Shown here one piece after another: positions 31,310 to 50,822 of a stretch of DNA of 64,000 nucleotides. Below the pieces are notes generated by a model that did not search any database, was not told where the DNA came from, and was given only the letters and a program-made list of their open reading frames with translations. Numbering within the stretch: position 1 is the first letter of the stretch; every line of letters begins with the position of its first letter. The position numbers were made by a program, and so were the translations under genes. This DNA is from Bacteriovoracia bacterium. Lineage in GTDB: Bacteria; Bdellovibrionota; Bacteriovoracia; Bacteriovoracales; Bacteriovoracaceae. The stretch is from the NCBI GenBank assembly GCA_030431635.1, contig JAUIIL010000001.1, positions 186,001 through 250,000 of the forward strand, given 5' to 3'.

Positions 31310-31419
31310 TTTTTTCATAAATCAGTTATTTAGGCTTAGTGTGAGTGACACAAACTTAAGGCAACATGGTTTATGAAAATTCAAACTGTTAGAAAAGGCT
31401 TTATGAAGTGAGTGAGTTG

Positions 31420-31427
31420 ACCGATTA
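31420..31427 (+). promoter_or_regulatory. Possible FliA-like -10 element (ACCGATTA)
   Basis: ACCGATTA lies 10 bp before the ATG at 31438. It resembles the -10 blocks of the neighbouring promoters but no matching -35 is seen 12 nt upstream. A start about 6-7 bp downstream would give an almost leaderless mRNA, which agrees with the absence of a ribosome-binding site here. Confidence 0.3.
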
Positions 31428-31437: not shown

Positions 31438-33240
31438 ATGAAGTTTTTTACTCTACTACTTATTTATGTGATTGCGGCCCATGCTCAAGAGATATCTGTT
31501 GATGATAACTTTCAGAAGCGAAATGCGATTGGTCTTAGTAGTGAGAGAAAAGTTAAAAGTGGTCCTATATGGAAGCAAGCTCAGCAAGTTCATTTTGTGG
31601 CCAAATTCTCAGGAGAAAAACTTAAAAGAATTCCTATTGATTTGAAGGAAGAGGATAAGTATTTCGTTTATGAAGGCAAACATAGTGATGGATCAACGAG
31701 GCTTGTGATTGATATCATTAAGAATAAAACAAATGAGGTCCAAACGGCTTTACTACCTCAAAATGTTAAAGAGTTTTATATAGTAGAGGAGGGCAATGAC
31801 TCTCAAAAGGCCTATCAAGTTCTCTTAGGGGCCAAGAAAATTAAGATGAAAAAGCTTAGAAATAACACTCTTAAGGAGTTACTTCTTACTTTCTCAACAA
31901 ATGAAGAAGTGGGAGCTCAAGCTTCTAAGGGTAGTTATCTTTGTCAATCTCTTCGTTGTGTGACACCTCTAAGAAAATCAGATGGAGTAGAAGTTGTCCA
32001 AGATGTGAAAGAAGTCTCTCAAGAGAGTCAGCTCATGACAAAGCTCTTGAATGAAGGGGTTTTAACGAGTAAGGATTTGAGAGAAGTGAAGGCGCAAGAG
32101 AGAAAAAAGAGAAGAGAGCAAAAAAAGAATTTCAGAAATATTGATGAAAATCAAGTGAGTTTGAAAGGGAAGAATAACAAAGTTGAGTTTTTTGAACTTC
32201 ATTATATTGAAGGGACTGAAGTTAAGGCCCTTGATGTTCTGGATGCGAAAGAGCTGCCTTACTTTTATGCTTTTCTCAATGATGAGGATCGTTTTGAGGT
32301 AGAATTTCAGCATCAACAAACAAATCAAGAGCAAAAATCAATCAGGGCCATTTTTGCAGATTCAGTTAATGAAATTGCTTTAAGTAAAATCTATAAAAAT
32401 GGAAAGAGAGATATTTTTCTTTTACAGAATAAAGATGGTGTTGTTGATGTGAAAGAGTTTATAGATTCAAAAGAGGATGCCATCACTCTAATGGGTGGAG
32501 AATCAAAAAATATAGCAAGTATGAGAAAAGCAAATACCTGTGAAGAACAACCTTATCTTTTTGATTGTCTCTTTCAGTTTGAAGGTAATGAAACAAGCTT
32601 TAGTGAGGAAAAGAAGATTGAAAGTGAAACGAGCCGCGGTATTAGTAGTGAAGATAAAGAGCTCGTGCAAAGACTACAAGAGGGTGATGAAAGCTTGAAG
32701 GGTAGAGACAGAAGAAGAGCAAAGAAATTAAATAGACAGGCCTCTCGTGAGCAGAAAAAGCTTTTTAAGAGTAATAAAAGAGAAGACTCCTTTTTTGGTC
32801 AAAAAGTAAATCAAGGTCTTTCTTCTCTGAGTGTTCATTATCTTGAAGATGGAGCTGTTAAGAAACTCGTGAGTATTGATCAAGCTGAAGGTGAAGGAGG
32901 GCTTAGAGATATTCCTTATTACCTTGTGAATACGAATGAGGAGAATAGGTTTCTCTTTGAAATGCAACTCAGAGATAATGCTCTTAATAAACGTTCACGA
33001 CTTGGTTTGTTTAGTTCAAAAGTAAAGAAATTTGCTGTAGTTGAGTCTTACCCTAATACTAAGAAAGATGTAATTGTTTTTTCAATGAACAAGAAAGGGC
33101 CAGAATATCAAAAAATTCAGGACGCTAAAGACTCAGTTGAGAGTATTCTTCTCTCAGAGCAAGGAAGAGGGCCAGCATCTATTAACTCTTGGTCAGATCT
33201 TATAAAAAGCTATCCTTTCTTTGCTCCTTTTTTTAACTAG
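31438..33240 (+). CDS. Secreted protein with three related beta modules and basic linkers
   Basis: A 600-residue exported protein (signal peptide ends AAHAQ). It contains three related modules of about 110-130 residues, at roughly 45-165, 240-365 and 470-580. Each has a VHF/FELHY/SVHYLE strand, a K-L/A-L-DV/SID segment, a PYFY/PYYL-type strand, an NRF-type strand (DRFEVEF, NRFLFEM), an S-x-V-x-x-(F/I)-A strand and a late K-K/R-D-(V/I) strand. Between modules lie two matching basic linkers (AQERKKRREQKKNF and GRDRRRAKKLNRQASREQ), each preceded by a helix of LxxxL type. Four Cys are in two pairs (CQSLRC, CEEQPYLFDC). No known domain is recognised. It is the first rightward gene of the locus. 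Confidence 0.65.
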   Translation: MKFFTLLLIYVIAAHAQEISVDDNFQKRNAIGLSSERKVKSGPIWKQAQQVHFVAKFSGEKLKRIPIDLKEEDKYFVYEGKHSDGSTRLVIDIIKNKTNEVQTALLPQNVKEFYIVEEGNDSQKAYQVLLGAKKIKMKKLRNNTLKELLLTFSTNEEVGAQASKGSYLCQSLRCVTPLRKSDGVEVVQDVKEVSQESQLMTKLLNEGVLTSKDLREVKAQERKKRREQKKNFRNIDENQVSLKGKNNKVEFFELHYIEGTEVKALDVLDAKELPYFYAFLNDEDRFEVEFQHQQTNQEQKSIRAIFADSVNEIALSKIYKNGKRDIFLLQNKDGVVDVKEFIDSKEDAITLMGGESKNIASMRKANTCEEQPYLFDCLFQFEGNETSFSEEKKIESETSRGISSEDKELVQRLQEGDESLKGRDRRRAKKLNRQASREQKKLFKSNKREDSFFGQKVNQGLSSLSVHYLEDGAVKKLVSIDQAEGEGGLRDIPYYLVNTNEENRFLFEMQLRDNALNKRSRLGLFSSKVKKFAVVESYPNTKKDVIVFSMNKKGPEYQKIQDAKDSVESILLSEQGRGPASINSWSDLIKSYPFFAPFFN

Positions 33241-33281
33241 TTAGACTGCCTATTTTTTAAGCTCTCTTTTTCACCTAAAAT

Positions 33282-33309
33282 TAAGGTTTTGGATGAATTT
33301 TACCGATAA
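33282..33309 (+). promoter_or_regulatory. FliA (sigma-28)-like promoter of the 1378-residue protein gene
   Basis: TAAGGTTT, 12 nt, ACCGATAA. Against the FliA consensus TAAAGTTT and GCCGATAA each block differs at one position; the spacer is one longer than the usual 11. The ATG lies 27 bp downstream. Confidence 0.6.
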
Positions 33310-33335
33310 CTAGAGCGTAGAGGTATACTTTTTAT

Positions 33336-36300
33336 ATGAATATGAAGCTGTTAATATTTTTCTTTTTATCAGGGGCCTATGCCTTTGAAATGTATAAAAT
33401 TGACTCTAGTAGTGAGAAGTATTCTCTGTATTCTCTTTGTTTTGAAAAAATGAACTCATTAACTGAAGTTCCCTTTCAAACGAAGTCTATTAAGCAAACG
33501 AAGAAAGAATTGAAAAAGGCAGATGTTCGCTGTGATCTTGATGAGCTGATGCTTAGTTACTTAGAAGATGAGAATAAGTTTTATACTAAAAAACTTAAGG
33601 ATGAACTGTGCCTTTCTCCTGATGGTGAGAAAGAGTGCGACAAAATAGTCAAAGAGTCTTTAAAAGACTATTTGCAAACGAATACACTCAATACGAGTAT
33701 ATGTTCAAATGAGGACATATACTCAACTCGCAAACATAAAAAAGAATGCCAATTAGGACTTGCTCTTAAAGGGCATCTTCAAAACGCAAAGACGATTGAT
33801 TCTAATGGTCGTCAAGTGGCCATTACGAGCCAGCTTTGTTTAAGCGTTTTTGATAATAAAGAATTGAAGTTAAAGTCAGAAATGGAACTTGATAATTTTC
33901 GAGTGAGTGATTGTGAGAGTATTAATAGTTCATCTCAGGAACATAAAGATCTCTGCTATGATATTGTTAACAACAATTATTCTCTTTTTCTTACACTTAA
34001 AGAAAAAGAAGGACTCTCTGGAGATGAGTTATTTCCAAATACTTCAGACTTACTCCAGATGTGTCAAGCATCAGCGAAAGGAAAGAGTGTCTGTGAGTCT
34101 TTCTCTCCTGTTGTTGCAGCAAGCTGTCAAGAGAGTATTAAAAATGCAGCGATAAAAAATGCTTTTGCTATCAGAGGGTGTGAGGATAATAATCCAATCT
34201 TAATCGAAAAAATTAAAGATAAGTGTGAAAAAGAAAGCTCCTTAGTCGTTGGGAGTGAGGATTACCTTCGTTGTGAGAAGTCTGTTAAAACCTCATGCAA
34301 ACTCTCTCGTGCTGGAAATGAACTTCTAAGAAATATCGGAGGGGAGCTGGCCCAAGAAGAAGGAGCTGTTGGAATAATGGCCCGCCTTGGTCTAAGTGCT
34401 GCTAGTTGTGTTCCTAGGGGGGCATTGGATAAAAAATATGAAGATCAGAATAAACTCTCGATACAAGATCTGTGCTTGAGCTACTTCACTTCTCTTGATG
34501 AAGCCAACTATTGTATTGAGATCCATAAAGGAATTCTTTCTCATTCAACTTTTAAAGAATGCAAGTCTGAAAATCTTGATTGTAGACTTACAAGTATTGC
34601 CGTTACGAAAGCTTGTCTGGAGCAAGATAACGGAAACTATAACTTAGAAAAATGTCTCTATAGTTCTGGTGATAATCAAGGGGTTTCTCTTATTAATCGT
34701 CTTCATACTGCGCAACTTGGAGTCACTCAAGACTCAAATCGCATGGTTCAAAACCGCCGTCGTGAAGCTGGACTTTGCTTGGCCGGTGCCGCGATGGGAG
34801 CTTTAGGTGAAATAGATGAGAATATCGCAAAATTTGGGAATGCGGCCATTGGGACTTTGAGTTGTTTAAGACAAGGGCCAAGTAAAGAGCAGAGGCTTAC
34901 TCTTCAAGAGACTTGTCAAAATGAAGCGAATAAAAATTCAACTGAGTGCCAAGAGTATAAGACAAGAGCGGCCATGAGAGACTCTTGCCTGGTTAACCAA
35001 TTAGGATCTTCCATTGCTGCTGAGTTAAAGGGAGACGCGAGAAAGATATTTGAAACTCTTTATGGAGCAGCATCAAGTATAAGAGAGTGTACGGCTATTC
35101 CAAATGAAGGAGTCGCAGGGCTTAATGGGAAAGTTAGAGATAAGCAAAAAGATCAGTGCTTCATGCGCGCTGGTTTTAATATGTTTGCCGATCTTTTTAA
35201 TGAAAATGAAAACTTGGCCCTAGGTATTGGATTAGCGGGTAATGCTCTTTCCTGTATGGGGTTAACTGGTGCTGAACTCACAAGATGTATTTCAACAGGG
35301 GCCTTATCTTCACTAGGTGCTCATATTAAAGATCCTAAACTTGCTAAGGCGTTCGAAGCGGCCAGCCAGGTTGCTGCAGCTGCTTTTTCTGCGAAAGATT
35401 GTTTAAATGGCGGAGGTAGTGGAGCTGATCAGGGAGCTTGTATTGCTCAATCAATTGCAGGTCTTATTCCTGGTCAAGCAGGATCTTATGTCCAATGGGG
35501 GCTTAGTGGTTACAAACTCATCCCAATGCTTAAAGGGGCTACGTGTCTAGATACAAAACTTCAAGCAGGTGGGGCTTTGGCCAGTTGGGGAGGAGAGTTT
35601 ATAACAACTGTTCTTCAAGAGGGTGAGAATAAGAGTCTTGGAAAAGATTATGAGCGCAGAGAAAAAGAGGCAGAACGCTATAAGAAAATTAATGGAGTTT
35701 ATCCCGCTAGTTATGACCCACAGGTAATGGCCTTTGACTATCAAATAGAAGCTCAAGCAGTAGCCATCAAAACTCTCCAGCGCAAAAGACCTTTCGTTTA
35801 TATTGGAACGGCGATGACTGCGGCTGCGCAATTAGTAAGTGCACTTAAAATTTTAGGCTTTGGAGGACTACCAACTTGTATCTCTGTTCCACCTGGAACA
35901 GCGGCCCAGGATATGGCCAAGTGTGCAGCAGGAGCTTTTAAACCTAATCTATTTAAGCAAAAGACATCTCTTTTCTCTTTCGAAAAAGAGGACTTTGATG
36001 TTGAAAAATATGTGAGAAGTATTCAAATTAATGATAAGAAAATTCAAGAATATGTAGAAGCTACTTTAAGTGACGAAGAAGCTTTCTTTGCTTATCAAGA
36101 AATGAACCGTTTAAAACTTGGTCTCAATCAGTCCATGAGTTTAGATGATTATAAAAAGTCACAGCAATTCTCTTTAAATGATTTTGATATATCAATTAAA
36201 CAAGCTATTTTAATGAGTTATAAAATAGAGCAGATGCTCAACCCTCTTATGAGTGCTCACGCCCTTGATGTTGAAGGCATTGCTGTGGGGACAGCTGAGA

Positions 36301-37472
36301 GTATTTTCTCTGGAGGGAATAATTTCTCTAGAGGAAATCCATTGAGTTATGCAGAAGATATGATTTTCCTTTCTCTTTCAAAAGTAATGGAGAAAACCGG
36401 AGATTTTCCTGGCAAGCGCGCTCTTTATTTTGCTGCTAGAAAGGCCACACAGGTTCTTGTTTGTACCCATGCTAAGGCCATGAATAAATTAATGATGAGT
36501 ACTCCTGGAAAATTAGCTGTTGGGGCCTACACACTTTATAACAACTCAAAAGTGATTGTTGATATTGAAAAATCAGTGAAAGAGAACAAAAAGCTTCAAA
36601 ATGAAACTCAAAAAAGACGTGATGATTTTGTTGAAGGAAAGGTTGTTCAAAGTGAGAGTCCTTTTGATAGTTTTATGAATCAGATAATAAATCCTCTCGA
36701 TTTTGTCATTGATAAGGCCTACGCTAAGCAAGCTGAGAAAATTTATGTTTGTATGGATTTTAAAGGTCAAATAAACCAGAAGTGTGAGTGCGCCAACTCC
36801 TCCTCTGGGTGTATCAGGCCTTACCCAAGAAGTCATAGCGAAGATCAGGACTTAAAGACGATGGTTACAGCTCAGCCTAAAATGATGGGGCCTCTAGAGA
36901 AAATGGTGGGGTTTCTGACAAAAGAAGTCACCGATCTTTTTGGAGGAAGTAAGTCTATTGATGATGTTAATGTTGAGAAAATTCAGGCGATGACAACTCA
37001 ACTTAATCAGGCCAGTGATAATTTGATTCAAAAAATTAATGAGAAAAGACAAAAAGAAGGGAAAAAGCCTTTTGAAGTAGAAGAAGCTGCAAAAATGGTA
37101 GAAGGAGAGCTTTACGCTTCCTTATCTCCAGAAATGAGAAAGGGACTTTTTGAAGAGCTTACAATTTCAGATTTAAAGAAAGGTCTTAGTAGCGGTAGTG
37201 AAGGAAATCTCAAAGAAAATACACCAGATTTAGCGAAACCTTCAGATAATCCTCAATTAGCTCAGGAGCAGTCAGTGAAGAGAATAGAGGAAGCTCTAGA
37301 GAGAACTCCTGCGAAGGAAGAGAGTGCTGCCTCTGTAAAAGAGAATATTGCTCTTAATAAGGCCTTAGAGCAAAAATATGATTATTCTCAAGCACAAGAC
37401 GATCTCTACCAAGGAACCAGTGGAATTTTTTCTGTTATTAGTAGTCGTTATAAGAAGATTTTTAGTCCATAA
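33336..37472 (+). CDS. Giant secreted Cys-rich protein with Gly/Ala-rich hydrophobic segments
   Basis: A 1378-residue exported protein (signal peptide ends GAYAF). Residues 1-470 are helical with regularly spaced cysteines, likely disulfide-paired hairpins. Between about 475 and 880 there are four Gly/Ala-rich hydrophobic stretches, for example CLAGAAMGALG, LALGIGLAGNALSC, FSAKDCLNGGGSG followed by IAGLIPGQAG, and IGTAMTAAAQLVSAL, of a kind seen in membrane-inserting or pore-forming proteins. A CxC motif (QKCECANSSSGC) lies near 1150, and the last 200 residues are charged helix. No known family is recognised; amphitropic membrane insertion is an inference. It has its own FliA-like promoter. 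Confidence 0.65.
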   Translation: MNMKLLIFFFLSGAYAFEMYKIDSSSEKYSLYSLCFEKMNSLTEVPFQTKSIKQTKKELKKADVRCDLDELMLSYLEDENKFYTKKLKDELCLSPDGEKECDKIVKESLKDYLQTNTLNTSICSNEDIYSTRKHKKECQLGLALKGHLQNAKTIDSNGRQVAITSQLCLSVFDNKELKLKSEMELDNFRVSDCESINSSSQEHKDLCYDIVNNNYSLFLTLKEKEGLSGDELFPNTSDLLQMCQASAKGKSVCESFSPVVAASCQESIKNAAIKNAFAIRGCEDNNPILIEKIKDKCEKESSLVVGSEDYLRCEKSVKTSCKLSRAGNELLRNIGGELAQEEGAVGIMARLGLSAASCVPRGALDKKYEDQNKLSIQDLCLSYFTSLDEANYCIEIHKGILSHSTFKECKSENLDCRLTSIAVTKACLEQDNGNYNLEKCLYSSGDNQGVSLINRLHTAQLGVTQDSNRMVQNRRREAGLCLAGAAMGALGEIDENIAKFGNAAIGTLSCLRQGPSKEQRLTLQETCQNEANKNSTECQEYKTRAAMRDSCLVNQLGSSIAAELKGDARKIFETLYGAASSIRECTAIPNEGVAGLNGKVRDKQKDQCFMRAGFNMFADLFNENENLALGIGLAGNALSCMGLTGAELTRCISTGALSSLGAHIKDPKLAKAFEAASQVAAAAFSAKDCLNGGGSGADQGACIAQSIAGLIPGQAGSYVQWGLSGYKLIPMLKGATCLDTKLQAGGALASWGGEFITTVLQEGENKSLGKDYERREKEAERYKKINGVYPASYDPQVMAFDYQIEAQAVAIKTLQRKRPFVYIGTAMTAAAQLVSALKILGFGGLPTCISVPPGTAAQDMAKCAAGAFKPNLFKQKTSLFSFEKEDFDVEKYVRSIQINDKKIQEYVEATLSDEEAFFAYQEMNRLKLGLNQSMSLDDYKKSQQFSLNDFDISIKQAILMSYKIEQMLNPLMSAHALDVEGIAVGTAESIFSGGNNFSRGNPLSYAEDMIFLSLSKVMEKTGDFPGKRALYFAARKATQVLVCTHAKAMNKLMMSTPGKLAVGAYTLYNNSKVIVDIEKSVKENKKLQNETQKRRDDFVEGKVVQSESPFDSFMNQIINPLDFVIDKAYAKQAEKIYVCMDFKGQINQKCECANSSSGCIRPYPRSHSEDQDLKTMVTAQPKMMGPLEKMVGFLTKEVTDLFGGSKSIDDVNVEKIQAMTTQLNQASDNLIQKINEKRQKEGKKPFEVEEAAKMVEGELYASLSPEMRKGLFEELTISDLKKGLSSGSEGNLKENTPDLAKPSDNPQLAQEQSVKRIEEALERTPAKEESAASVKENIALNKALEQKYDYSQAQDDLYQGTSGIFSVISSRYKKIFSP

Positions 37473-37499
37473 TTAATCTTGATAAAAACACTCTAGCTC

Positions 37500-37527
37500 T
37501 GAATTTTTAAGCCCAACATTCCGATAA
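37500..37527 (+). promoter_or_regulatory. FliA (sigma-28)-like promoter of the M48/UbiB-like gene
   Basis: TGAATTTT, 12 nt, TCCGATAA: six of eight and seven of eight matches to the FliA -35 and -10 blocks. The -10 ends 7 bp before the ATG at 37535, so transcription should begin at or next to the start codon. Confidence 0.5.
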
Positions 37528-37534
37528 AACCTTG

Positions 37535-40500
37535 ATGAGGTTTTTACTTTTATTTCTTTTTTGTCATGTTTTGAGTGCTCAAGAAGTCGAGTGGATAGAT
37601 AGCGATATTGAGTCTCTTACAAACCAAGAACTACGTAGTGCTATGAAGCACAACCATACGAAAATTATCAATACTAAGTGGCTTCCAGAGATTGTTCCAT
37701 CGGCAAGAATGATCGAGAAAAAACTATCAAGTTATGTGAAAAAAGAAGATGGAGTACAGAAAATAGGATTGATACTGATAGAGAATGAGTCAGTAATGGG
37801 GAGTATTACAAGAACCGCCAATGGTGAAAAATTTGTTATCTTTAGTACTGGCTTTATTGATTTTATAAAAAGTGATGACGAACTTGGTTTTGTTTTAGGC
37901 CATGAACTTGAGCATGCTCTTTCTCAAATTGAAGGTGTAGCTGATGTTTTAACTTATGGAACAAATGGGGCCAAGGATCAAATTCAAGGGTTACTTCTAA
38001 GAAGAGTAATTGAAAATGAAGTTGATGTGAAGTCTCTTTTTAGGATGATCGATAATGGAGATAATCCCTATGCTGCCTATGACTTTTTGGATAGAGTGGA
38101 TAAGTTAGAAGAAGGAAGAGTCGGAGGGACTCATACAAAATCAACTAATAGGCGTGATGGAATCGCTGCTACCAATACTTATCTAAGTAGAAATCAGGGC
38201 GTTGAAATTCAAGCACGAATGAATCCTGATGATAGGCAAACCAAGATTGTTGATCAGTTTCAAAAAGATATAATCGAGAATAAAGATGTTCAGAATAGAA
38301 TCGCGCAAAGGGTTGAGCATTTTTTTCAAAATCCAAGTTCAGAAGTTGCACAATTTTATTTTAACAAGTTAAAAAAAATCACCAAGGACTCTAGTACGGA
38401 TGAATTTAATGGTGCTTTTAAAAGAGATTTTTATAGTCAATGGAGTTATCTATATACTCACTATAAAAAAAGTAAAACACAAGAGGAATTAAAAAGCCTT
38501 CAGGAAATATTTTTTAAAAAATTAAGTACTGTTTATGACAAAGTAAGAGTCGAAGTGCTCGGAGAATCTTTTGTTCCTCGAAACATAAAACAAATGAGAT
38601 CTTTTACTTATCTTAACGAGCAAGATGGGATTGGGTATAGAGAAGTTGTTGATGATCTAAAAAATGCAGAAAGGTATCAACGTGTTGAGTATGCTCTTCA
38701 TAAAGAATTTCAAAAAGAAAAATTAGTTTGGGATGAAAGATACGCTCACGAGCTTGAATTTCAAAGTACAAAAACAAGAGTAGAAAATTATCAGAAAGCA
38801 CAAAGGGAGAGCTCTCAGAAAATTAAGAAACTAAAAAAATATTTCGTTGAGAAAGATTTTGAAAAAGGTCTAAAAGAGCTCACTCAAGAGTACACCAATT
38901 TAGATGTATCGAATTTTTATCAAGACTTAAGGGAAATGGGATTAGTCTTCAATAACTTTTGGGATAAGCATCTCCTAAAAAGAGATGAGATACTTACAGG
39001 AACTAAAAAGAGATTCTTAGAGAAATGGTTAAAAGAGGCCAAGCTTGAAGACATGAGAGAGGGGATAGATCTTTTTAATTCTCTAGAGCCTGAGAAAGGT
39101 TTTTTGTTTTTAGAGAGGTTTCACGAACTATCAAAAGATTATTACCTCACAAGGGGGGAGGATGTTTTACCAGTGGGCTCATTTTCATATTTATTAGATA
39201 GAGATAGATTTTTCTTTTCTAGTAATGGAGTCTTCCTCAAAAAACTTTACCAAGAAGATGCTTCTAGGCTGAAAGATTTTTTTGAAAGAGAGCTGAACTT
39301 ACTCATTGATAGTGAAGTAAAATTATCATCCCAGGGAATTAAAAGTACAAAAGTAGTTGCAGAGTTAACTCTTTTTGACTCTTTAAATTCTCTTCCTGAA
39401 GTCATAAGAAAAGATGAAGAAGTACAAAGAGTATTTTCTCAAGCAATGTCAAAATTTATTGAGAATAGAGTGAATTCAATTGAGAATATGAATGACTTAG
39501 TTAAATATTTAAAAATGTTTGAAAAGATGAATAACTCTGGTGATTTAGCGAGAGTTGGAGAGATAACAATAAGAAATCAACTCAATCGTCAAAATTCCTT
39601 AAAAAAATATAAGCTATCACCTGATGTTTTTACTGCAATTGAAAAAAAGCTTTTTTCTTATTTTAAAAACCTAGGTTTTTCTATGGAAGAAGTAAAGATT
39701 CTTAGAGAGCTTATATTCAGTGATAATATTGAAAAGCGTTTTAACTCTGAAGAAATTAATATTTTAATAAAAATGGCGAAGAATAAAGAAACTAAGAAAT
39801 ACTTGTTTAAGATTTCAGGAGATGAAGCGGTCCATCAAACATTATTCAATAAAAAGCTATCTTTAGATGATAGTTTTGAAGCCTTTCACTCTTTGAGCCT
39901 TTATTATGATAAAAACTACATCAATATTCATATAACGAATGACTTTCAGCACGAACGATTAAACAATTACTATCAATGGGTTTTAGAGAATCATCCTCGT
40001 GAGTTTACAGAGTTACAGTTTTTTCATAAACAAAGGCCCCATCTGATTAAAGAAGCTTTTGATAATTTTTTTAATGTATCTAAACCTCTTTTTTATCAAT
40101 TCTATCCTGCGCGAAAAAAAGCTCAAATACTTACTAGAGCTTTTTATCAAAATTTTGGATTATTTCAGGATTATGATCATTACCTCGTTAGTCAGCTCAA
40201 GAGAGAGATGCCTAAAAATAAACTAGGTCAATTACAAATATTTATGGGGCAAATTGATGAGATATTCAATTTTCAAAACGAAATTGAAAAAGCAACTATT
40301 GGCAGCGTTTTTGACAAAAAAGCTTTCATGGAACTCTTGGGTGATGATGCTATTTTTAAAGCGTTATCAGAGGATGACTTATTTAAAATCGCCCAGGTAG
40401 CTTTAAAAACTAAAGGTGGTGAAATTATTGAAGGACAGGCCTTTGATAATATTTTTCTTCATTTGATAGATTATGCTGAAAATAACTCATCAATTAAATC

Positions 40501-42550
40501 TTTTCTTAAAGATCCTAAACTAGTCAGTCGGATGAAATTCAACTCGACAAAAAATAAACTATCAGTTTGGCAAATTAATGAAATATTTAAACTTAATGAA
40601 GTTGCTGATAATCTAGCCAGCAGTAAGAGCGCTTTTCCTCTTTTAAATGAGCGCAGAAGTTTAGTAAGAGATGTTGCTCAATTTATTAAAAAACAATTCC
40701 CTGAGCAGAGTACTTTAAGAAATGAAACTCTCAAATACTTAGAGAAAAAAATTACAACAAGCAGAAGCGAATCAAGTTATCTCAAGCCCTATTATAGGCA
40801 TATGGGAAATTGGTATAAAGATGATTTACTCGTACTAATCGATAGTCCTCACATTCTTTTTGATAAACTTAAAAACTCGCAACAAAAGTATGATGCAATG
40901 TTATTTATGTTAGGATTGAGAGAGGATATACCAGGAATTGAATTTAATCCAGAATTAAGAAGAGCAGTTCAAATACTCAGAGAAGGGTATTGGGGACTTC
41001 CCTTAGAAGGAAAGACTCTCACTTTACTTGCTCTATTTGATGAACATAATGGCATTCTCTCTTCTTCTGAATATACTGAAGAGTTGATGAAAATTGTTTT
41101 AGGTGAGAATTATTCTAATAAACAAATAAAAGTTTCATTTGAAACGTACTTGAGAAATCTTCCTGTTGGAGAGCAAAAGAACATTCTCTCTCATATTATA
41201 GGAACAATAGCTGACGACCCTTTTAAAAAGCCATCAATTGCTTCGTTTGTTTCTGCCCTTGATGCTATGGGGTATAAGGGAGCTCAGTTTTTGAGAGCAA
41301 CAGGTTTCTTACCCAAAAAGGCCAGAGAAGAACTCTCTTTTGTTTTTGACAGGGCCTCTCCTCCAGAGCAGCAGAGTTTTTATAGACATCTAGAAGATCT
41401 CTTAGGGGATAATATAAAGTATATTCATCATGTAGAGGGAATTAAAAATGCTGGTTCTATCAATTATACTGCAAAGGTTGTTTTTCGAGATCCTGATACT
41501 AATAAACTAGTAGAAACGGCCTTAACAATTCAAAAAGAAAATGTAAGTGGGAGAATTCAAGAAGAGAATAAAGTTTTAAAAAAGACAGCTGAAGAATTAA
41601 TGGATATGCGTGATTATGAATTGAAAAAAAGCGGAATGATCATTGAAGAGACTCGTTCTCAGGCCTATCAAACACTACATGTTGGTGGAGATGAGCTTGA
41701 TCAAACTAAACAGCGCTCCAAATATGAAAGCGCGCTTAAGGCCTATGAAAACCTCGATAGTGAGGTTAGGGTCAAAGTTGCTAGTCCCCTTGAGAAATTT
41801 CAAAAGTTATTTAAAAAGAAACACCAAGGAAGAGTTTCTGTTTATGAGTGGGTTGAGAAAATTGATATTGATGACTTAAGTGTAAACGAGCAAAAAAAGA
41901 TTCTTAAACAAATTGTTGTGTCTGAAGATGGTGCTCAATTTATCAAAGGTTTACATGATACAGATGGGCATCCAGGGAATTGGTTAATTACAAGAGATAT
42001 AAAGTCTCCATCTGGCTTTAGCATTGTAAGAATTGATTATGCTCAAATGGTTGAACTTTCAGCGGAAGAGCTAAAACAGTGGAAGAACCTCTTTAAATTA
42101 CTTATTAGACCAAAAGTAGGAGAGGGTTTTGTTGATGAAATGGCTTCTTTACTTAAATTCACTTTTCAACTTGAAAGCCTTCCTAGAGATTATGAAAAAA
42201 CTTTAAGAGAAATTATTTTTCAAGACGATTTCCCAAGTGCAAGAGAGCCCATAGAGCGTCTTTTTAAAATTCAAGAAGCTTTCCTCGATAATTATAAAAT
42301 GAGGGCCCTAAGAGGGGATTTCAAGCTTTCACCTGTCGTTCAAAAACAACTGGCCTCCATTGGAAAGAGAAACATCTATCAAGAAAAGCTAGGGAGTGCA
42401 CTTAGAGTAAGCTCTCTTTTTGATTTTCTTGAAATAGATAAAAATAATTATTTTTTTGAGTTGTTTTCCCAGCAAGCTTTGAGAAAACTCGAGCAAACCA
42501 AGTCGGTTATCCTTAAATGCCTTAGGGTAAGAAGAAAATCAATAATTTAG
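37535..42550 (+). CDS. Giant secreted protein: N-terminal M48-like metalloprotease, C-terminal UbiB/ABC1-like kinase fold
   Basis: A 1671-residue exported protein (signal peptide ends LSAQ); ATG 37535 follows an in-frame TTG. Residues about 60-200 form an M48-type zinc protease: SDDELGFVLGHELEHAL with His123, Glu124, His127, and the third ligand Glu162 in IENEVDVKS. A long helical region follows to about 1240. The C-terminal part matches UbiB/ABC1 atypical kinases: KGAQFL (cf. KxGQ), FLPKKAREELSFVFDRASPP, NAGSINYTAKV (cf. AAASIGQVH), GLHDTDGHPGN (cf. HADPHPGN; Asp1477, Asn1482) and IDYAQMV (cf. DFG; Asp1501). The ATP-binding lysine of VAVKVQ appears as Thr1331 in TALTIQ. An extracytoplasmic location is unusual for this kinase family. 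Confidence 0.75.
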   Translation: MRFLLLFLFCHVLSAQEVEWIDSDIESLTNQELRSAMKHNHTKIINTKWLPEIVPSARMIEKKLSSYVKKEDGVQKIGLILIENESVMGSITRTANGEKFVIFSTGFIDFIKSDDELGFVLGHELEHALSQIEGVADVLTYGTNGAKDQIQGLLLRRVIENEVDVKSLFRMIDNGDNPYAAYDFLDRVDKLEEGRVGGTHTKSTNRRDGIAATNTYLSRNQGVEIQARMNPDDRQTKIVDQFQKDIIENKDVQNRIAQRVEHFFQNPSSEVAQFYFNKLKKITKDSSTDEFNGAFKRDFYSQWSYLYTHYKKSKTQEELKSLQEIFFKKLSTVYDKVRVEVLGESFVPRNIKQMRSFTYLNEQDGIGYREVVDDLKNAERYQRVEYALHKEFQKEKLVWDERYAHELEFQSTKTRVENYQKAQRESSQKIKKLKKYFVEKDFEKGLKELTQEYTNLDVSNFYQDLREMGLVFNNFWDKHLLKRDEILTGTKKRFLEKWLKEAKLEDMREGIDLFNSLEPEKGFLFLERFHELSKDYYLTRGEDVLPVGSFSYLLDRDRFFFSSNGVFLKKLYQEDASRLKDFFERELNLLIDSEVKLSSQGIKSTKVVAELTLFDSLNSLPEVIRKDEEVQRVFSQAMSKFIENRVNSIENMNDLVKYLKMFEKMNNSGDLARVGEITIRNQLNRQNSLKKYKLSPDVFTAIEKKLFSYFKNLGFSMEEVKILRELIFSDNIEKRFNSEEINILIKMAKNKETKKYLFKISGDEAVHQTLFNKKLSLDDSFEAFHSLSLYYDKNYINIHITNDFQHERLNNYYQWVLENHPREFTELQFFHKQRPHLIKEAFDNFFNVSKPLFYQFYPARKKAQILTRAFYQNFGLFQDYDHYLVSQLKREMPKNKLGQLQIFMGQIDEIFNFQNEIEKATIGSVFDKKAFMELLGDDAIFKALSEDDLFKIAQVALKTKGGEIIEGQAFDNIFLHLIDYAENNSSIKSFLKDPKLVSRMKFNSTKNKLSVWQINEIFKLNEVADNLASSKSAFPLLNERRSLVRDVAQFIKKQFPEQSTLRNETLKYLEKKITTSRSESSYLKPYYRHMGNWYKDDLLVLIDSPHILFDKLKNSQQKYDAMLFMLGLREDIPGIEFNPELRRAVQILREGYWGLPLEGKTLTLLALFDEHNGILSSSEYTEELMKIVLGENYSNKQIKVSFETYLRNLPVGEQKNILSHIIGTIADDPFKKPSIASFVSALDAMGYKGAQFLRATGFLPKKAREELSFVFDRASPPEQQSFYRHLEDLLGDNIKYIHHVEGIKNAGSINYTAKVVFRDPDTNKLVETALTIQKENVSGRIQEENKVLKKTAEELMDMRDYELKKSGMIIEETRSQAYQTLHVGGDELDQTKQRSKYESALKAYENLDSEVRVKVASPLEKFQKLFKKKHQGRVSVYEWVEKIDIDDLSVNEQKKILKQIVVSEDGAQFIKGLHDTDGHPGNWLITRDIKSPSGFSIVRIDYAQMVELSAEELKQWKNLFKLLIRPKVGEGFVDEMASLLKFTFQLESLPRDYEKTLREIIFQDDFPSAREPIERLFKIQEAFLDNYKMRALRGDFKLSPVVQKQLASIGKRNIYQEKLGSALRVSSLFDFLEIDKNNYFFELFSQQALRKLEQTKSVILKCLRVRRKSII

Positions 42551-42558
42551 CTTTGTGC

Positions 42559-42586
42559 TCAAGTTTTATCTTCTGTCGTCCGATAA
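42559..42586 (+). promoter_or_regulatory. FliA (sigma-28)-like promoter of the CxC-repeat protein gene
   Basis: TCAAGTTT, 12 nt, TCCGATAA: seven of eight matches in each block to TAAAGTTT and GCCGATAA. The ATG at 42617 lies 31 bp downstream. This is the best overall match of the set together with the one at 33282. Confidence 0.6.
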
Positions 42587-42616
42587 AGAGTTGATATTTA
42601 AGTAGTGAGTGGAACG

Positions 42617-45589
42617 ATGAGATTATTATGTCTTTTAGCTATTGTAACTTTATTTTCTCACGCGAGTGATGAAAAGCCTGAAAGACACAGAAGTCGTATT
42701 GACGATCTAGTGGCAGATCTTGGAAGGGACTGGGGAAGCAGCACTCCAACAGAAGTTAATAGGCAAATACTCAAGAGAATTCAAGAAGTAAAATCTTCCG
42801 GCGTCAAAGTTGTTGAGACAGATAAATATATGGCCGTTTTTGATACAGAGTATGGAAGGCCTTATGTTTTTAAAAAGAATAACCTATCTGAAGATCAAAG
42901 AGAAAAATATGGGATAAATGAGGGAGAAGTTTTCTTACTACATAAAAATGGAAGAGAAGATTTCTGGCGTTTTAAAACTCAAAATTCAAAAAGAGCAGCA
43001 AATGACTTAAAAGAAGAAGACCCTTCTCTTGAGTTATCTACCTATAATAAGCATTTAAGCTTTATTGAAGGGGCCAAAAAAGATACTCTCAATACAATGA
43101 TATCTTGCTTTCCTATGAATAAAAATTCTTGTAGTGACAATCAGGAGTTTGATTCACTTAATTGTCTTTGTATAAGTAAAAAAGAAAAACAAAAAAATCC
43201 TGTTTCTCTGTCTGATGGCCCTACTCCTATAATGGGTAGTGGAGAGCTTTTTGGTGGAGGAGTTGTTATTCCAAAAGAGAAGCTAAAATGTGAAGGAGTT
43301 GAGGGTGTTACCCCAATGAGCGAAGAGAAATTTAACTCCGCAAAGGATTCTTGTAAACAAGCAGGGCATAAGTGGAAGAACTGCCAATGCTTAAGTGTCA
43401 AGACAGGAGGAACTCTTTGTAAATATAAAGAGAAAAGAAAAATAACTGGGAAAACAGATAATTCTTTAAAAGCTGTCTATAGAGATCGTGAAGGAGAAGA
43501 TTGGAATAATGAAAAGCTCACATGGGCCCCTTGTAGTATTGAGAATTGGATGGGAAGCATTGCTCGTTTAAAGAAAGATATTCCTCATTGTGCTCAGTGG
43601 GAGAAAATAAAAATTAAATCTAAAGCAAAAGGAAATAACTTCAAAGAGAAGCGCTACGCCTGTCAAAAATGTAAAGAAGGCTATATTCAAAAGTTTAATG
43701 AAGTGGATATGCTCGTCGGCGTGAATGATTATTTTATGGAAGGGCCTATCCAAGGTGTGACAGCTTGTACTGAGCCTCCCCGTAGTATGCAGTGTAAAAA
43801 TGCAGCAAAAGAGCAGAGAAAATGTGAAAGAAGGAATAACGATTCTCAAATCGGTTATGAATATAAATTTAATCCTTTTACTTGTGAGTGCGCCAAAAGA
43901 CCTGTCTCGATTCCAGAGAATAAGGATCTTGTGGCCCAGAGTTGTGAAGCAAAAGTGACTCAAGGTGATAGAGATCGTTGCTACAACAACGGTGGTTATT
44001 TAGATGAGAACTGTCAGTGTGAAAGACCATGTTACGATAGAGTCTATTTTAACGATCTTGAAGACCAAGGTCCTAAATGTGATTATCTAGGGACTGAACT
44101 TGATAATACTTTAGTTAAGCTCATTGAAGAAACAAGTGTTGTGGCCCAAAAAAACTGTGAGGAACTTACTCAGAATTCAATGTTTGAGCAAAAAAAGAAG
44201 AGTTTAATTCAAAAATGTATTGATGAAATCGGGATGGCACCAAAGGGAATCAAATCAAGAACGGTAAGTTTAAAGCTTGCTTTAAGTGAAGATGTTTCTT
44301 GCTCTGTTAATTTAACGCAAGAGAGTGAGGATTTTGGTTCCAAGTTTCCTGCTCTGGTTGGAGGAGTTGATTTGGCCAAAGATTTTAAGGGCGCAGACGG
44401 ACAGAGGCTAAATCCTGAGAACATTGATTGCTCTAGGGGAATTCGTTACCAGAAAAAAGGATTTAATAATAAACTTCTTAAAGGAAATGAGTGCGAGTCT
44501 GTGAAGTCCATGTATGAATCTATAAAATCCAAGGCCAATAAACTTGCAGAGAGTGTTATTAATGACCCTAATATTCCAGAGAGTGTTGATAAGTCAAAAA
44601 TGATTTTAGATAATCTTAATCTTGAAATTATTGCAACGGCTAACAGGATTGCGCATAAGGACGGTTATGTTTCTCACCAGGAACTTGCTAATGAGAGGGC
44701 TTCTTCAGTGAGAGACCTCTACCTCGATTTTCTTAAAGAAAGTCCTTACCTGAGTCAAAACGAAAAATTCAAACAAGCGGTTGAGAAAATCAAGCAAGAA
44801 GAAGCTCCTCGCTCACTGGCCTACTTTGGCCCTCATGTGAAAGGAAAATCTCTTAATGAGATGAAATCTCTTTCGGGAGAGGAGATGCTTAGTTATTGTG
44901 AAAATAGAATGAGTTCATCTCATGAGTTCTATCAGTGTAGTGTTGATTACCACATTGATGTTGAACTCTCTCATGGTGATGAAGCACAGAGTTTTATGAA
45001 AACTTTCTCTGATGTTTATAACATTAGATTACCAGAGAAAAAAGAAGAGTACAGACAAAAGCTATTAAACCTTCCCAATGGAAGTACTGAATTTATGGAT
45101 TATTATAAACTTTTTAATATCCAAGCAACGACAAGCGAGTCATTAGGATACAAAAAAACAGCGTCCTCTGATGTTGAATTTGAATGTGAAACTCAATTTA
45201 AAGATATCTATGATGAGTCCCCAAAACTTGTTCCAGTGCAAGTTCGTTATGGGAAGAGACCTGCTTTTTTTCAACGCTTTAACAAGCAGTGCCAAGAGGA
45301 TTATCAGAAAACAATCAACGAGATTGCTCAAGAGCTCTCCCAAGAAAATGCAGAACTAAAAAATGAACTTCGAGATCGTTTTGAGCCAGAAGTAGCACAA
45401 GAGAAATTTGATAGGAAAATGAAGGCCCTGGCCCGAAAAGAGTGGAGGCAAATGAAGAGAAATACTCGCTCTGTGGCCAAAGAGCATGACTCAAGTTTCT
45501 CTGAGGCCTATGATTGGATTAAGTCAACTCCAGGTGAAGCTTTCAAATGGGGCGAAAAACAGTATAATGAGCTCAAGAGAAATGAATAA
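42617..45589 (+). CDS. Large secreted protein with repeated CxC modules
   Basis: A 990-residue exported protein; ATG 42617 (MRLLCLL) is preferred to an in-frame GTG 12 bp upstream that would precede the signal peptide (ends FSHAS). Residues about 155-475 carry at least four short modules that begin with Cys and end in an NCxC-type pair: FDSLNCLCISK, HKWKNCQCLSV, FNPFTCECAKR and LDENCQCERPC. Such spacing suggests small disulfide-rich domains, not classical EGF. The C-terminal half is charged and helical (for example KFDRKMKALARKEWRQMKR). No known family is recognised. The CPBP protease gene starts two bases after the stop, so the two are cotranscribed. Confidence 0.65.
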   Translation: MRLLCLLAIVTLFSHASDEKPERHRSRIDDLVADLGRDWGSSTPTEVNRQILKRIQEVKSSGVKVVETDKYMAVFDTEYGRPYVFKKNNLSEDQREKYGINEGEVFLLHKNGREDFWRFKTQNSKRAANDLKEEDPSLELSTYNKHLSFIEGAKKDTLNTMISCFPMNKNSCSDNQEFDSLNCLCISKKEKQKNPVSLSDGPTPIMGSGELFGGGVVIPKEKLKCEGVEGVTPMSEEKFNSAKDSCKQAGHKWKNCQCLSVKTGGTLCKYKEKRKITGKTDNSLKAVYRDREGEDWNNEKLTWAPCSIENWMGSIARLKKDIPHCAQWEKIKIKSKAKGNNFKEKRYACQKCKEGYIQKFNEVDMLVGVNDYFMEGPIQGVTACTEPPRSMQCKNAAKEQRKCERRNNDSQIGYEYKFNPFTCECAKRPVSIPENKDLVAQSCEAKVTQGDRDRCYNNGGYLDENCQCERPCYDRVYFNDLEDQGPKCDYLGTELDNTLVKLIEETSVVAQKNCEELTQNSMFEQKKKSLIQKCIDEIGMAPKGIKSRTVSLKLALSEDVSCSVNLTQESEDFGSKFPALVGGVDLAKDFKGADGQRLNPENIDCSRGIRYQKKGFNNKLLKGNECESVKSMYESIKSKANKLAESVINDPNIPESVDKSKMILDNLNLEIIATANRIAHKDGYVSHQELANERASSVRDLYLDFLKESPYLSQNEKFKQAVEKIKQEEAPRSLAYFGPHVKGKSLNEMKSLSGEEMLSYCENRMSSSHEFYQCSVDYHIDVELSHGDEAQSFMKTFSDVYNIRLPEKKEEYRQKLLNLPNGSTEFMDYYKLFNIQATTSESLGYKKTASSDVEFECETQFKDIYDESPKLVPVQVRYGKRPAFFQRFNKQCQEDYQKTINEIAQELSQENAELKNELRDRFEPEVAQEKFDRKMKALARKEWRQMKRNTRSVAKEHDSSFSEAYDWIKSTPGEAFKWGEKQYNELKRNE

Positions 45590-45591: not shown

Positions 45592-46218
45592 ATGAATAAA
45601 AAATTAATACTCGGGCTCGAGTTTTTTCTCCTCTACATTTTTTTAGTTTTAGGAATCCATTATAAATGGATAACGATTCATCCTTTTATTCTTCTAGGCC
45701 TTGGATTTAGCTATGCTCTTTTTCAACTAAGAGGAGAGTTTTCTGCACTTTTTCTGACTGGCTTTGAAAAAGAGGATTTGTATTTTGTTCTTAAACGCTT
45801 TTTTATCATTGCTCTTTTTGTTGGAGTCGGAACCTACTTTTTAAGACCGGACAAACTCTTCTATGTTGTTAAGAATCGCCCCAAACTAATTTTGATTGTT
45901 TTCTTTGCGTATCCTCTTTTATCAGCTATCCCACAAGAAGTTCTTTACAGGAGCTTTTTTTTCAAGAGATATCAGTCCTTGTTTGGGCCAGGACAATTAA
46001 TTATTTTTGTAAACGCGCTCTGTTTTAGTTTTCTACATGTTATCTACAACAATTGGGTTGCTCTCACTTTTACTTTTGTGGGAAATTACCTCTACACTTC
46101 AACTTATTTAAAAAAGAAGTCCTTTGGACTTGTTTGCATCGAGCACTCACTCTATGGTCTTTTAATGTTCTTGATTGGGCTTGGTGACTTCTTTGTGTTG
46201 CGTTTTAACCTGAATTAA
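45592..46218 (+). CDS. CPBP (CAAX/Rce1-like) intramembrane metalloprotease
   Basis: A 208-residue multi-spanning membrane protein. The CPBP motifs are present: PQEVLYRSFFFKRY (Glu116, Arg120), FSFLHV (His149) and EHSLYG near 185. The first Glu of the usual EExxxR is Gln115, a change also tolerated in some family members. Such proteins cut membrane-near peptides or serve as bacteriocin immunity/maturation factors. Placed directly behind the CxC-repeat gene, it could process products of the locus; that is inference. It converges with the MNT gene, overlapping by 4 bp. Confidence 0.8.
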   Translation: MNKKLILGLEFFLLYIFLVLGIHYKWITIHPFILLGLGFSYALFQLRGEFSALFLTGFEKEDLYFVLKRFFIIALFVGVGTYFLRPDKLFYVVKNRPKLILIVFFAYPLLSAIPQEVLYRSFFFKRYQSLFGPGQLIIFVNALCFSFLHVIYNNWVALTFTFVGNYLYTSTYLKKKSFGLVCIEHSLYGLLMFLIGLGDFFVLRFNLN

Positions 46219-46508
46219 AAAAGAGTTTTTTCTTTTAGATAGTTCTCAAGATAGGATTTTTCAAAGTCCTTAAGTTGAACTAGATCTATTTTAATTGGTA
46301 GAGAGCTTTCCTCAAAAACTTCTCTTAGTTCCCCAATTAAATCTGATAAATCCTTATCAGATTCAAGCATAAGATCAAGATCAGAAAATTCATGGTAGTC
46401 ACCTCTGGCCCTTGAGCCAAAACAGTAGATTTTTGCGTTGAACTCTCCAGCAGCTGTGAGCTGCTTTTTTAAAAAGTGATAATCTTGTTCTTCAAGGCCA
46501 AACTTCAT
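46215..46508 (-). CDS. MNT-domain nucleotidyltransferase (antitoxin of HEPN/MNT pair)
   Basis: A 97-residue minimal nucleotidyltransferase with the signature GSRARGDYHEFSDLDLML (GSxAxG...DxD), the metal- and nucleotide-binding core, and a third Asp in KIDLV. In HEPN/MNT pairs this protein AMPylates the HEPN toxin and blocks it. It is translated from an ATGA overlap with the HEPN gene. Confidence 0.85.
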   Translation of the reverse strand: MKFGLEEQDYHFLKKQLTAAGEFNAKIYCFGSRARGDYHEFSDLDLMLESDKDLSDLIGELREVFEESSLPIKIDLVQLKDFEKSYLENYLKEKTLF

Positions 46509-46864
46509 ACTGAATCAAATTGAGTAGATAGGTTTTCTAGTTCACTCAGAAATCGGCTAGCGAAGGAGTAGACTTCTTCTGCTAAGTCCTCATTATAGGT
46601 GTGTGAGGATAAATTTCTCTTTTCAATCGCTTCAAGCCAGAGTTTTGCATCTTGAATAAAATGATTTTGGGCCATTTCCCTAACAATTTGCTTTGGGGCA
46701 GTCGTTGGGGTTCCCATAAGCTTCTTGGCATACTTCCACGCTAGTTCTACACAAAACTCAAATCTCTGAATGGCCGCATCTCGGCTGATATCGTTTTTTT
46801 CTGCATGAAGTGCTTTTTTGAGAGAATCGACAGCTTTTTTATATTTTTCAATAGTGACGGCCAT
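46505..46864 (-). CDS. HEPN-domain protein (HI0074-like toxin of HEPN/MNT pair)
   Basis: A 119-residue helical protein starting at ATG 46864; the frame stays open for another 58 codons upstream but that part runs into the integrase terminator stem and does not resemble the family. AIQRFEFCVELAWKYAKK and EKRNLSSHTYNED are hallmarks of the nucleotidyltransferase-substrate-binding HEPN family. RNLSSH is the Rx4H ribonuclease motif and the following Tyr is the residue AMPylated in known pairs. It sits at the junction between chromosome and mobile element, and may serve element maintenance. Confidence 0.82.
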   Translation of the reverse strand: MAVTIEKYKKAVDSLKKALHAEKNDISRDAAIQRFEFCVELAWKYAKKLMGTPTTAPKQIVREMAQNHFIQDAKLWLEAIEKRNLSSHTYNEDLAEEVYSFASRFLSELENLSTQFDSV

Positions 46865-46939
46865 AAGCGCTTTTAAATTTGGTGGATTCGACGGTTTTTT
46901 GTCTAACCCATTAAGTTTATACAGATAACGATAGAAGAT

Positions 46940-46956
46940 TTGGCTACAATAGCCAA
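46940..46956. promoter_or_regulatory. Perfect inverted repeat upstream of the HEPN/MNT operon
   Basis: TTGGCTA-CAA-TAGCCAA: a perfect 7-bp inverted repeat with 3-bp centre, about 75 bp upstream of the HEPN start. Position fits an operator for autoregulation, or a small hairpin in the leader. No direct evidence of function. Confidence 0.35.
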
Positions 46957-47012
46957 GGGAAAAATTCACTCTCAAAAAACAGTAAGTTTTGAGAATTTCA
47001 TCTTTTCCCATA

Positions 47013-47042
47013 AAAAATGCACAAGATTCCTTGTGCATTTTT
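47013..47042 (-). terminator. Intrinsic terminator after the integrase gene
   Basis: A perfect 13-bp stem AAAAATGCACAAG/CTTGTGCATTTTT with a 4-nt loop, 25 bp beyond the integrase stop. The symmetric A/T ends would let it work in both directions, isolating the element from the HEPN/MNT operon. Confidence 0.75.
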
Positions 47043-47067
47043 CAAAAGCGAAATGTCTTGAAAGCTT

Positions 47068-48255
47068 TTAGGTCGTCACTTGATTCATAAATCCTTTGGA
47101 TTTAAAAAGAATGACATTTCCATTTGGGCCTTGATGATTTGTGACAATCGGCGACATTCCAATCCCGTCAGTAACCCCCTGAACATCAAGTCCTGCGAGT
47201 CTGATATAAATTTGAAACGTCTTTCTGTCTTTCCAGCCACCCATTGCCATGATCTGCTCAACATATCTTAGGCCTTTTTCGGCCAAGGTATGTGTTGCCC
47301 AGCAAGCTCTCAATGTATGAAATGTAACTGAGGTAATTCCAATCTCTTCACAGAATTTTCTTAAGGCCGCGGCCTGTGCCCCATATCCCCATTCCTTAAT
47401 TCGAGGAAGCAGATATGGAGTATCTGGGTAGAGTCTAAAAAGCTCTTGGATTACCCCTAGAAGATAGTCGTTGATGTAAACATTTCTCCAATCGGCCGAC
47501 TTTGTGGCTTTTGCACGTTTGTTTACATAGTCCCATCCCTTAGTGATTTTGATATTGCGATTCACTAAATCAACATCACTTTTTAAAAGAGTGTAACATT
47601 CGCCGTTTCTGCAAGCTGCGTTCAAAACGAAGGCCCAAACATAGTACCATTCATTTTCACGCTCTCTGGCCTCAGTTAAAAGCGTAATACACTCGTTTTT
47701 TGTAAGGATGAGAGGAACTTTCTCTTGTTGTGAATCAAATTGAACATCAACACCAAAAACAGGAGATACATGAACACCTTGAATGTATCTTTCTTGTATT
47801 CCCCAATTGTAGATAGTGTTAATTGTTCTTTTGACTTTGGTGACACTGGTTTTAGAAAGCCCACTCATTTTTGCAAAAAGAAGGGCCTCTTTTCCATCTG
47901 CCTTTGAAAGTTCAGCAGCAGGAGCATCAAACCATTCACTTGTCCAACAATCTATAGCACTTCGATAAGTCCTAAGAGTGTTGGGAGAATAGCTTTTAAA
48001 GAAGCCTTGCTCGGCCTCCAAAAACCAAAGATCTACAACATCACTCCAAGATATGCCTCGATATTCCTCTAGTGTTACAAGATCAGAGCATTTTTTAATC
48101 CATTTTTTCTCAAGCTTTAACCCTTGAGCTTCGGACTCAATGCCTCTGATTCGCTTTTGTTTGCGGATTCTCGAATCTTTCTGGCTTCTGATGTTTACAT
48201 ACATCATCCAGTATTCTTTTCCGCTTTTCTCATCTTTGTAAGAAGTAACCGCCAT
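47068..48255 (-). CDS. int: Tyrosine recombinase (site-specific integrase)
   Basis: A 395-residue phage-type integrase. The N-terminal strands (SYKDEKSGKEYWMMYVNIR) look like an arm-binding AP2-like domain, followed by a SAM-like core-binding region (about 65-165). The catalytic set is Arg216 (ACRNGE), Lys252 (TKSADWRNV), His313 and Arg316 (FHTLRACWATH), Trp341 in the usual His/Trp place, and Tyr350 (FQIYIRL). AGGAGG lies 7 bp before the ATG, inside the end of the excisionase gene, so the two are coupled (TAATG). It should integrate and, with the excisionase, excise the element. Confidence 0.93.
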   Translation of the reverse strand: MAVTSYKDEKSGKEYWMMYVNIRSQKDSRIRKQKRIRGIESEAQGLKLEKKWIKKCSDLVTLEEYRGISWSDVVDLWFLEAEQGFFKSYSPNTLRTYRSAIDCWTSEWFDAPAAELSKADGKEALLFAKMSGLSKTSVTKVKRTINTIYNWGIQERYIQGVHVSPVFGVDVQFDSQQEKVPLILTKNECITLLTEARERENEWYYVWAFVLNAACRNGECYTLLKSDVDLVNRNIKITKGWDYVNKRAKATKSADWRNVYINDYLLGVIQELFRLYPDTPYLLPRIKEWGYGAQAAALRKFCEEIGITSVTFHTLRACWATHTLAEKGLRYVEQIMAMGGWKDRKTFQIYIRLAGLDVQGVTDGIGMSPIVTNHQGPNGNVILFKSKGFMNQVTT

Positions 48256-48500: not shown

Positions 48501-48560
48501 AGCAAAATCTCCCTAATTGGCCAATGCATTTAATCAATTTTTCACCTAAAAAATTGCTCA

Positions 48561-50821: not shown

Positions 50822-50822
50822 T

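Follow-up and report, generated by a model that had tools for sequence, protein, structure and literature searches.

The proteins of the UbiB/COQ8 family are ancient and nearly universal, and their chemistry is disputed, with kinase, ATPase and lipid handler all proposed. In a 64,000-nucleotide stretch of the genome of a Bacteriovoracia bacterium (GenBank contig JAUIIL010000001.1, positions 186,001 to 250,000; here the window, numbered from its first letter), a sequence-only reading had seen a secreted fusion of an M48-like metalloprotease and a UbiB/ABC1-like kinase fold, the latter apparently lacking its ATP-binding lysine. The locus raises the question of what such a domain could do outside the cytoplasm, in one chain with a protease and deprived of that lysine.

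The fusion is encoded by one ORF on the + strand, running free of stops from either a TTG codon at 37532 or an ATG codon at 37535 to 42550 and predicting a protein of 1672 or 1671 aa, respectively. The protein is referred to here as the focal giant; residue numbers of its motifs follow the ATG start (CDS 37535-42550, stop codon included), and all of its features given below are on the + strand. The first 15 residues, MRFLLLFLFCHVLSA (37535-37579), have the short n-region, the h-region and the LSA/Q junction of a Sec signal peptide, with the cleavage site in front of QEVE judged by eye. No hydrophobic 19-mer was found after residue 30, and there is no later transmembrane segment. The signal peptide claimed from the letters was thus recovered, and every motif quoted with it is present where it had been placed.

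An M48 metallopeptidase domain of the BepA/YfgC type was assigned to 37664-38281 from profile, alignment and structure comparison. It includes HELEH (37901-37915, residues 123-127), which would supply two zinc histidines and the catalytic Glu, and ENEVD (38012-38026, residues 160-164), an ExxAD-type M48 motif whose Glu would be the third zinc ligand. Both are in register with those of other HExxH-bearing giants (see below), and the Asp of ExxAD is invariant in the alignment. The family N-terminal alignment carries the full M48 signature, GLL...DEL..VLgHE..H...E..AD...aGYnP...THP....R. An AlphaFold model of residues 17-1199 is poor overall (pLDDT 58.2) with the protease part usable, and VIA-align matched the protease model to BepA (6ait) with Z 16.5 and rmsd 2.9 over 170 residues, and to Ste24/ZMPSTE24 with Z 9-10. 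By sequence, profile and predicted fold the N-terminus is an M48 peptidase domain, in agreement with the zinc site first proposed for it. The linking region of ~940 residues that follows (38282-41101) is modelled as almost wholly helical and solenoid-like at low confidence, with pLDDT mostly <60 and better from about residue 950 on. The AlphaFold prediction for this middle region is too uncertain (pLDDT 58 overall) to assign it to a repeat family.

The C-terminal domain (41231-42499) has a kinase fold of the UbiB/COQ8 type. A PDB sequence search with the W-group profile gave nothing meaningful, so that structure and profile-profile comparisons were needed. The AlphaFold model of residues 1180-1672 (38 sequences) reached pLDDT 87.8 and pTM 0.85, and Foldseek placed COQ8A at the top (5i35, E 1.5e-9), ahead of MSMEG_1954 and Rv3197, two ABC1 proteins of mycobacteria. 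VIA-align of the same model with COQ8A (7udp) gave Z 21.9 over 345 aligned residues, with RIO1 next at Z 11; the alignment begins at COQ8A residue 258 and hence includes the N-terminal extension with the KxGQ motif. Profile-profile comparison (hhalign) of the W-group with six ordinary UbiB proteins gave a probability of 98.9 and E 1.2e-17 over 377 columns. Taken alone, the Pfam scores of the focal giant are borderline, at 23.2 bits for PF03109 (cut-off 22.9) in the own-genome search and 21.9 for the isolated domain, and at 22.3 bits for PF01435 (cut-off 20.3) with the isolated N-terminal 300 aa and 18.9 at full length, and for both domains the relatives are decisive. The Pfam M48 family was found in 22 of 28 family N-termini (best E 4.8e-17) and ABC1 in 33 of 38 C-termini (best E 2.2e-32). 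Both halves of the reading therefore hold at the level of profile, homologues and predicted structure: PF03109 and PF01435 do match, and the predicted C-terminal fold is that of a kinase. Chance motifs or misannotation are ruled out by the homologues, the fold and the profile-profile match.

The motifs of this domain occur along its length. KGAQ (41276-41287, residues 1248-1251) corresponds to the KxGQ motif of the UbiB N-terminal extension, though with Ala in place of its Gly, and FLPKKAREEL is also present. ELD (41693-41701) represents the ExD motif of the N-lobe insertion, as defined in PMC4718504, and is largely kept in the W-group. The catalytic loop HDTDGHPGN (41954-41980, residues 1474-1482) contains the catalytic Asp, a His and the metal-binding Asn, and RIDYAQ (42029-42046), which overlaps the quoted IDYAQM, contains the metal Asp equivalent to that of DFG, so that the catalytic Asp, metal Asn and DFG Asp of the UbiB/ABC1 family are all found. 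The invariant beta3 ATP-binding Lys of that family is replaced by Thr, and the UbiB equivalog model TIGR01982 (NCBIfam) did not match the focal giant and gave only 33-35 bits, against 487.55, for two of its paralogues (B and C). Because of the missing lysine and the equivalog score, the domain is named UbiB-like and is not filed as UbiB/COQ8.

The focal giant is one of many. A PF03109 search of its own genome found, besides two genes for ordinary UbiB, four giant ORFs: the focal giant and paralogues A, B and C. Paralogue A (2009 aa) retains both HEVGH and the lysine, in VIKLAR; B and C (1627 and 1641 aa) are without HExxH and keep the UbiB-like domain, and as this is the case for two of the three paralogues the two activities are separable, a point against the main interpretation given below. 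Close relatives occur in three further genomes, G057, G017 and G013. G057 has two copies in divergent, head-to-head orientation (L019:6025-16027), with the sigma28-type sites of both in the short intergenic region that they share. In G013 the giant is present as two ORFs overlapping by 17 nt (L021:7370-13592, - strand), with the protease part and the UbiB-like part on either side of the break; the arrangement would fit a natural split as well as a frameshift or a sequencing error.

When 369 genomes of the phylum were scanned with a profile built from eight C-terminal domains (A1), the matches included dozens of giant ORFs together with ordinary UbiB proteins and forms of about 700 aa. The set analysed below comprises 39 giants or pieces of giants, the focal giant included, mostly of 1.4–2.7 kaa. 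A signal peptide opens nearly every giant whose N-terminus is intact, and HExxH lies close to the N-terminus in roughly two thirds; the layout of signal peptide, N-terminal HExxH and UbiB-like C-terminus is found in many families of Bdellovibrionota. Named contigs hit by the W-group profile come from Bacteriovoracaceae, Oligoflexia and other Bdellovibrionota, or from proteobacterial MAGs that are unplaced, and the family is likely confined to Bdellovibrionota, judging from a scan that rests on one motif pattern. In a tree built without the trait columns, the giants group as a single clade (96/91) apart from ordinary UbiB, with the focal giant sister to L055 (100/99) and Thr at the lysine position in both. 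The two-domain layout of the proposed protease-kinase fusion is thus upheld; a single fusion event in one genome is ruled out by its wide distribution, and the fusion belongs to a family that is large and old in the phylum and present in multiple copies. Six of the shorter forms (L078, L079, L085, L086, L087 and L088) are exported UbiB-like proteins of about 700 aa, without a protease and with a Cys near the C-terminus, and the four with the active site read (L078, L079, L085 and L088) have Arg at the beta3 position. A literature search of incomplete coverage, for the M48-UbiB combination or for exported UbiB in Bdellovibrionota, returned no description. A UbiB-like kinase fold outside the cytoplasm of a bacterium seems to be undescribed, and the relatives are apparently unnamed and unstudied.

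An indication of when the giants may be expressed comes from upstream of the ORF. In Bdellovibrio bacteriovorus, the sequence TTAAG-N16-CCGATA, which matches the FliA site, is present at 92 of 140 mapped attack-phase promoters (PMC3627812). A putative sigma28/FliA-type promoter, TGAAT-N16-CCGATA, with 9/11 agreement to this consensus, was found at 37500-37526 (+ strand); its -10 element ends 8 nt before the ATG, and the start may be leaderless. Sites with at least 8/11 agreement overall and at least 5/6 in the -10 element, located 4-12 nt before the start codon, were detected for 11 of 33 giants, a count to which the focal giant adds one more; among other ORFs 1 of 117 had such a site, and among random segments 1.25%. 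The genome of the focal giant has a FliA gene (270.9 bits) and, in the 850-kb sample from which the own-genome statistics are drawn, a sigma28-type site at 37 of 747 genes. Attack-phase-type control of the giants is well supported at the level of promoter sequence, and makes them candidates for undescribed machinery of bacterial predation. Elsewhere in this genome, a sigma28-type site lies 18 nt ahead of a 3146-aa ORF at C1:286246 (L122:16246, + strand).

The focal giant is the third of four consecutive genes for exported proteins (31438-45589), each preceded by its own putative sigma28/FliA-type promoter. The others, co-directional with it on the + strand, predict a 600-aa protein (31438-33240, site at 31401-31426), a Cys-rich 1378-aa protein (33336-37472, site at 33281-33308, 11/11 with a 17-nt spacer) and a Cys-rich 994-aa protein (42605-45589, site at 42559-42585). 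A gene for an Rce1-like (PF02517) membrane protease (45592-46218, + strand) ends the run. That the giant shares a conserved operon with its two Cys-rich neighbours was considered and rejected, as 59 genomes hold one strong relative of the 1378-aa gene and none of the 994-aa gene. On one side the run is adjoined by a likely integrative conjugative element (46505-57348 and beyond, - strand) with genes for a HepT/NTase-substrate-binding-like protein, a tyrosine integrase, a MobA/VirD2-type relaxase and a TraC/VirB4-type ATPase. On the other, three consecutive proteins of 620-693 aa are encoded on the - strand (25326-31245) and belong to no Pfam family. An Rfam scan of the window found no RNA family.

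A further shared feature is at the extreme C-terminus. The lone Cys of the mature focal giant, Cys1662, is the 10th residue from the C-terminus (42518-42520), and the final 25 residues include a Cys in 31 of the 33 giants that are complete (1.75 expected), often likewise the only one of the mature protein. It is also found in the exported forms of about 700 aa and is absent from most ordinary UbiB proteins. Position +4 after it is mostly hydrophobic: of 35 tails, 14 have Phe there and 7 have Leu. Tails with a lone Cys, roughly of the form C-x-[KR]-[LV]-F, are carried by giants (L052-L083) and by a few exported proteins of the focal giant's genome that have no annotation, at C3:21663-25298 (L132:1663-5298, + strand), C3:273242-275305 (L144:13242-15305, - strand) and C1:76306-77868 (L114:16306-17868, + strand). 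The unrelated exported proteins with such a tail include ones of 1212, 688 and 521 aa, which have no significant Pfam family. The tail may be a new C-terminal tag that serves anchoring or sorting, and for the Cys itself anchoring, a mixed disulfide or lipidation are possible roles. A C-terminal Cys is not a general trait of exported proteins, as the own-genome sample has 56 where 53 would be expected; the subset of C-N/Q/R/P/K-x-F/L tails is mildly enriched (12/239 against 2/296), with three of the 12 being giants of this family. A cysteine switch acting on the zinc site is disfavoured, since the Cys persists in paralogues that have no HExxH. A CAAX/myxosortase route through the adjacent Rce1-like protease, under the definition of PMC11980579, was rejected as the tail has no transmembrane helix; PF02517 was also not found in 4 of 14 genomes with giants and is unlinked to giants elsewhere, which counts against the same route.

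The loss of the lysine proved to be real and part of a family-wide trend. Thr1331 (41525-41527) of the focal giant occupies the column of the beta3 Lys (VAVK in UbiB), which is present in 6/6 ordinary UbiB proteins compared with 10 of the 39 giants. The 29 giants that have lost it carry Arg (10), Tyr (4), Leu (4), Met (3), Thr, Gln and Ser (2 each), or Ala and Asn (1 each), and four changes between Lys and non-Lys are required on the tree. In the nucleotide loop (NAGSIN, 41447-41464; NAGSINY from residue 1305), the focal giant has Gly where COQ8A has Ala339. A Lys in this loop (GSxSIK) is found in 23 of the 39 giants and is usual where the beta3 residue is non-basic. WNK kinases have a relocated lysine, of which the loop Lys is reminiscent, and it could stand in for the beta3 Lys in these relatives. 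The focal giant, which has Asn there, and its sister L055 lack both lysines. Loss of the catalytic Lys is, at sequence level, no proof that nucleotide binding is lost.

With moderate confidence, the focal giant is interpreted as a Sec-exported, attack-phase-expressed envelope protease of the BepA type that is governed by a lysine-less, ligand-binding UbiB-like module. After export, the protease would act on envelope proteins, either those of the predator itself during attack or those of the prey on contact, and the long helical arm would give it the reach to do so. In an ATP-free compartment, the UbiB-like domain would no longer serve as a lysine-dependent ATPase. It may bind a phosphoryl or polyprenyl/phospholipid ligand via the Asp/Asn/Asp metal site, a lipid ligand being suggested by analogy with COQ8 and Cqd1, and in the bound state would position or switch the protease, much as COQ8 proteins act on membranes. 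The C-terminal Cys would anchor or cross-link the protein. The source organism is presumed from its kin to be a predator.

A somewhat improbable alternative is a plain pseudokinase role for the UbiB-like domain, which would then perform no ligand chemistry and, as a structural or protein-binding module, serve only to hold substrates or partners for the protease. This would fit the Thr, Tyr, Leu, Met, Gln, Ser or Ala that replaces the beta3 Lys in many giants, and the general knowledge that the periplasm holds no ATP. However, the rest of the pocket is nearly invariant: the KxGQ Gln is found in 39/39 giants and its Lys/Arg in 36/39, the catalytic-loop His in 39/39, Asp or Glu at the catalytic position in 39/39, the metal Asn in 37/39 and the DFG Asp in 38/39. 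The catalytic Asp, His, metal Asn and DFG Asp are conserved even in members only 15-20% identical to the focal giant, which argues against a mere scaffold, as a scaffold would not need them.

It is distinctly unlikely that the giant is an effector that, once exported, is passed on into prey cells, in which its UbiB-like domain would meet ATP and work as a kinase or ATPase alongside the protease. The prey cytoplasm would supply ATP, several relatives keep the beta3 Lys, and a putative attack-phase-type promoter in a phylum of bacterial predators would suit such a role, but no delivery signal or system was found, the focal giant and its sister have neither lysine, and the helical arm and C-terminal Cys look envelope-bound. 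Although other members of the UbiB family reside in the cytoplasm or on the membranes of organelles and the topology here is a predicted one, an uncleaved signal anchor in reverse orientation that leaves both domains in the cytoplasm, where ordinary UbiB works, is highly improbable given the short n-region, the h-region and the LSA/Q site, the comparable N-terminus of nearly every intact giant, the match of the M48 domain to periplasmic BepA and the lack of a transmembrane segment like the C-terminal ones of ordinary UbiB.

The reading as a ligand-governed envelope protease can be extended, in a form that is tentative and on balance doubtful, to an extracytoplasmic UbiB branch of Bdellovibrionota that performs metal-dependent phosphoryl or polyprenyl-lipid chemistry without the ATP-lysine. 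Such a branch would share its chain with a protease, come into play during the attack phase and bear, in the Cys tail (C-x-[KR]-[LV]-F), a new anchoring tag that other exported proteins have as well. If true, this would be a signalling or lipid-handling system outside the cytoplasm that serves predation. A branch outside the cytoplasm in which the ATP-lysine has been lost repeatedly and the rest of the pocket kept would be a natural experiment on the UbiB fold without ATP, and the giants offer a testable regulon and a testable protease for the study of bacterial predation.

Several known systems come close to the giants. The exported forms of about 700 aa likewise have a signal peptide, a UbiB-like domain (ABC1 E 1.5e-30 in L078) and a lone C-terminal Cys, but differ from the focal giant in having no M48 site and no long arm, and branch outside the giants in the tree. 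BepA/YfgC, the periplasmic M48 protease of E. coli, is like the focal giant exported, with an M48 fold, the HExxH...ExxAD arrangement and a helical region after the protease. However, in BepA this region is a short TPR domain and there is no kinase-fold domain, whereas in the giants a much longer helical arm is combined with a UbiB-like end. With COQ8A/ADCK3 and the UbiB/ABC1 (PF03109) atypical kinases, the focal giant shares the fold, the KxGQ extension, the ExD motif, the catalytic loop and the DFG Asp. It differs from them in its predicted export, the protease in the same chain, the replaced beta3 Lys, the Gly in place of Ala339, the absence of C-terminal transmembrane helices and the lack of a match to the UbiB equivalog. 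The yeast proteins Cqd1 and Cqd2 have access to ATP, which reaches the intermembrane space. These UbiB proteins are located on the non-matrix side of the membrane and affect lipid and CoQ distribution (PMC8346625), but, unlike the focal giant, they need canonical active-site residues and carry no protease.
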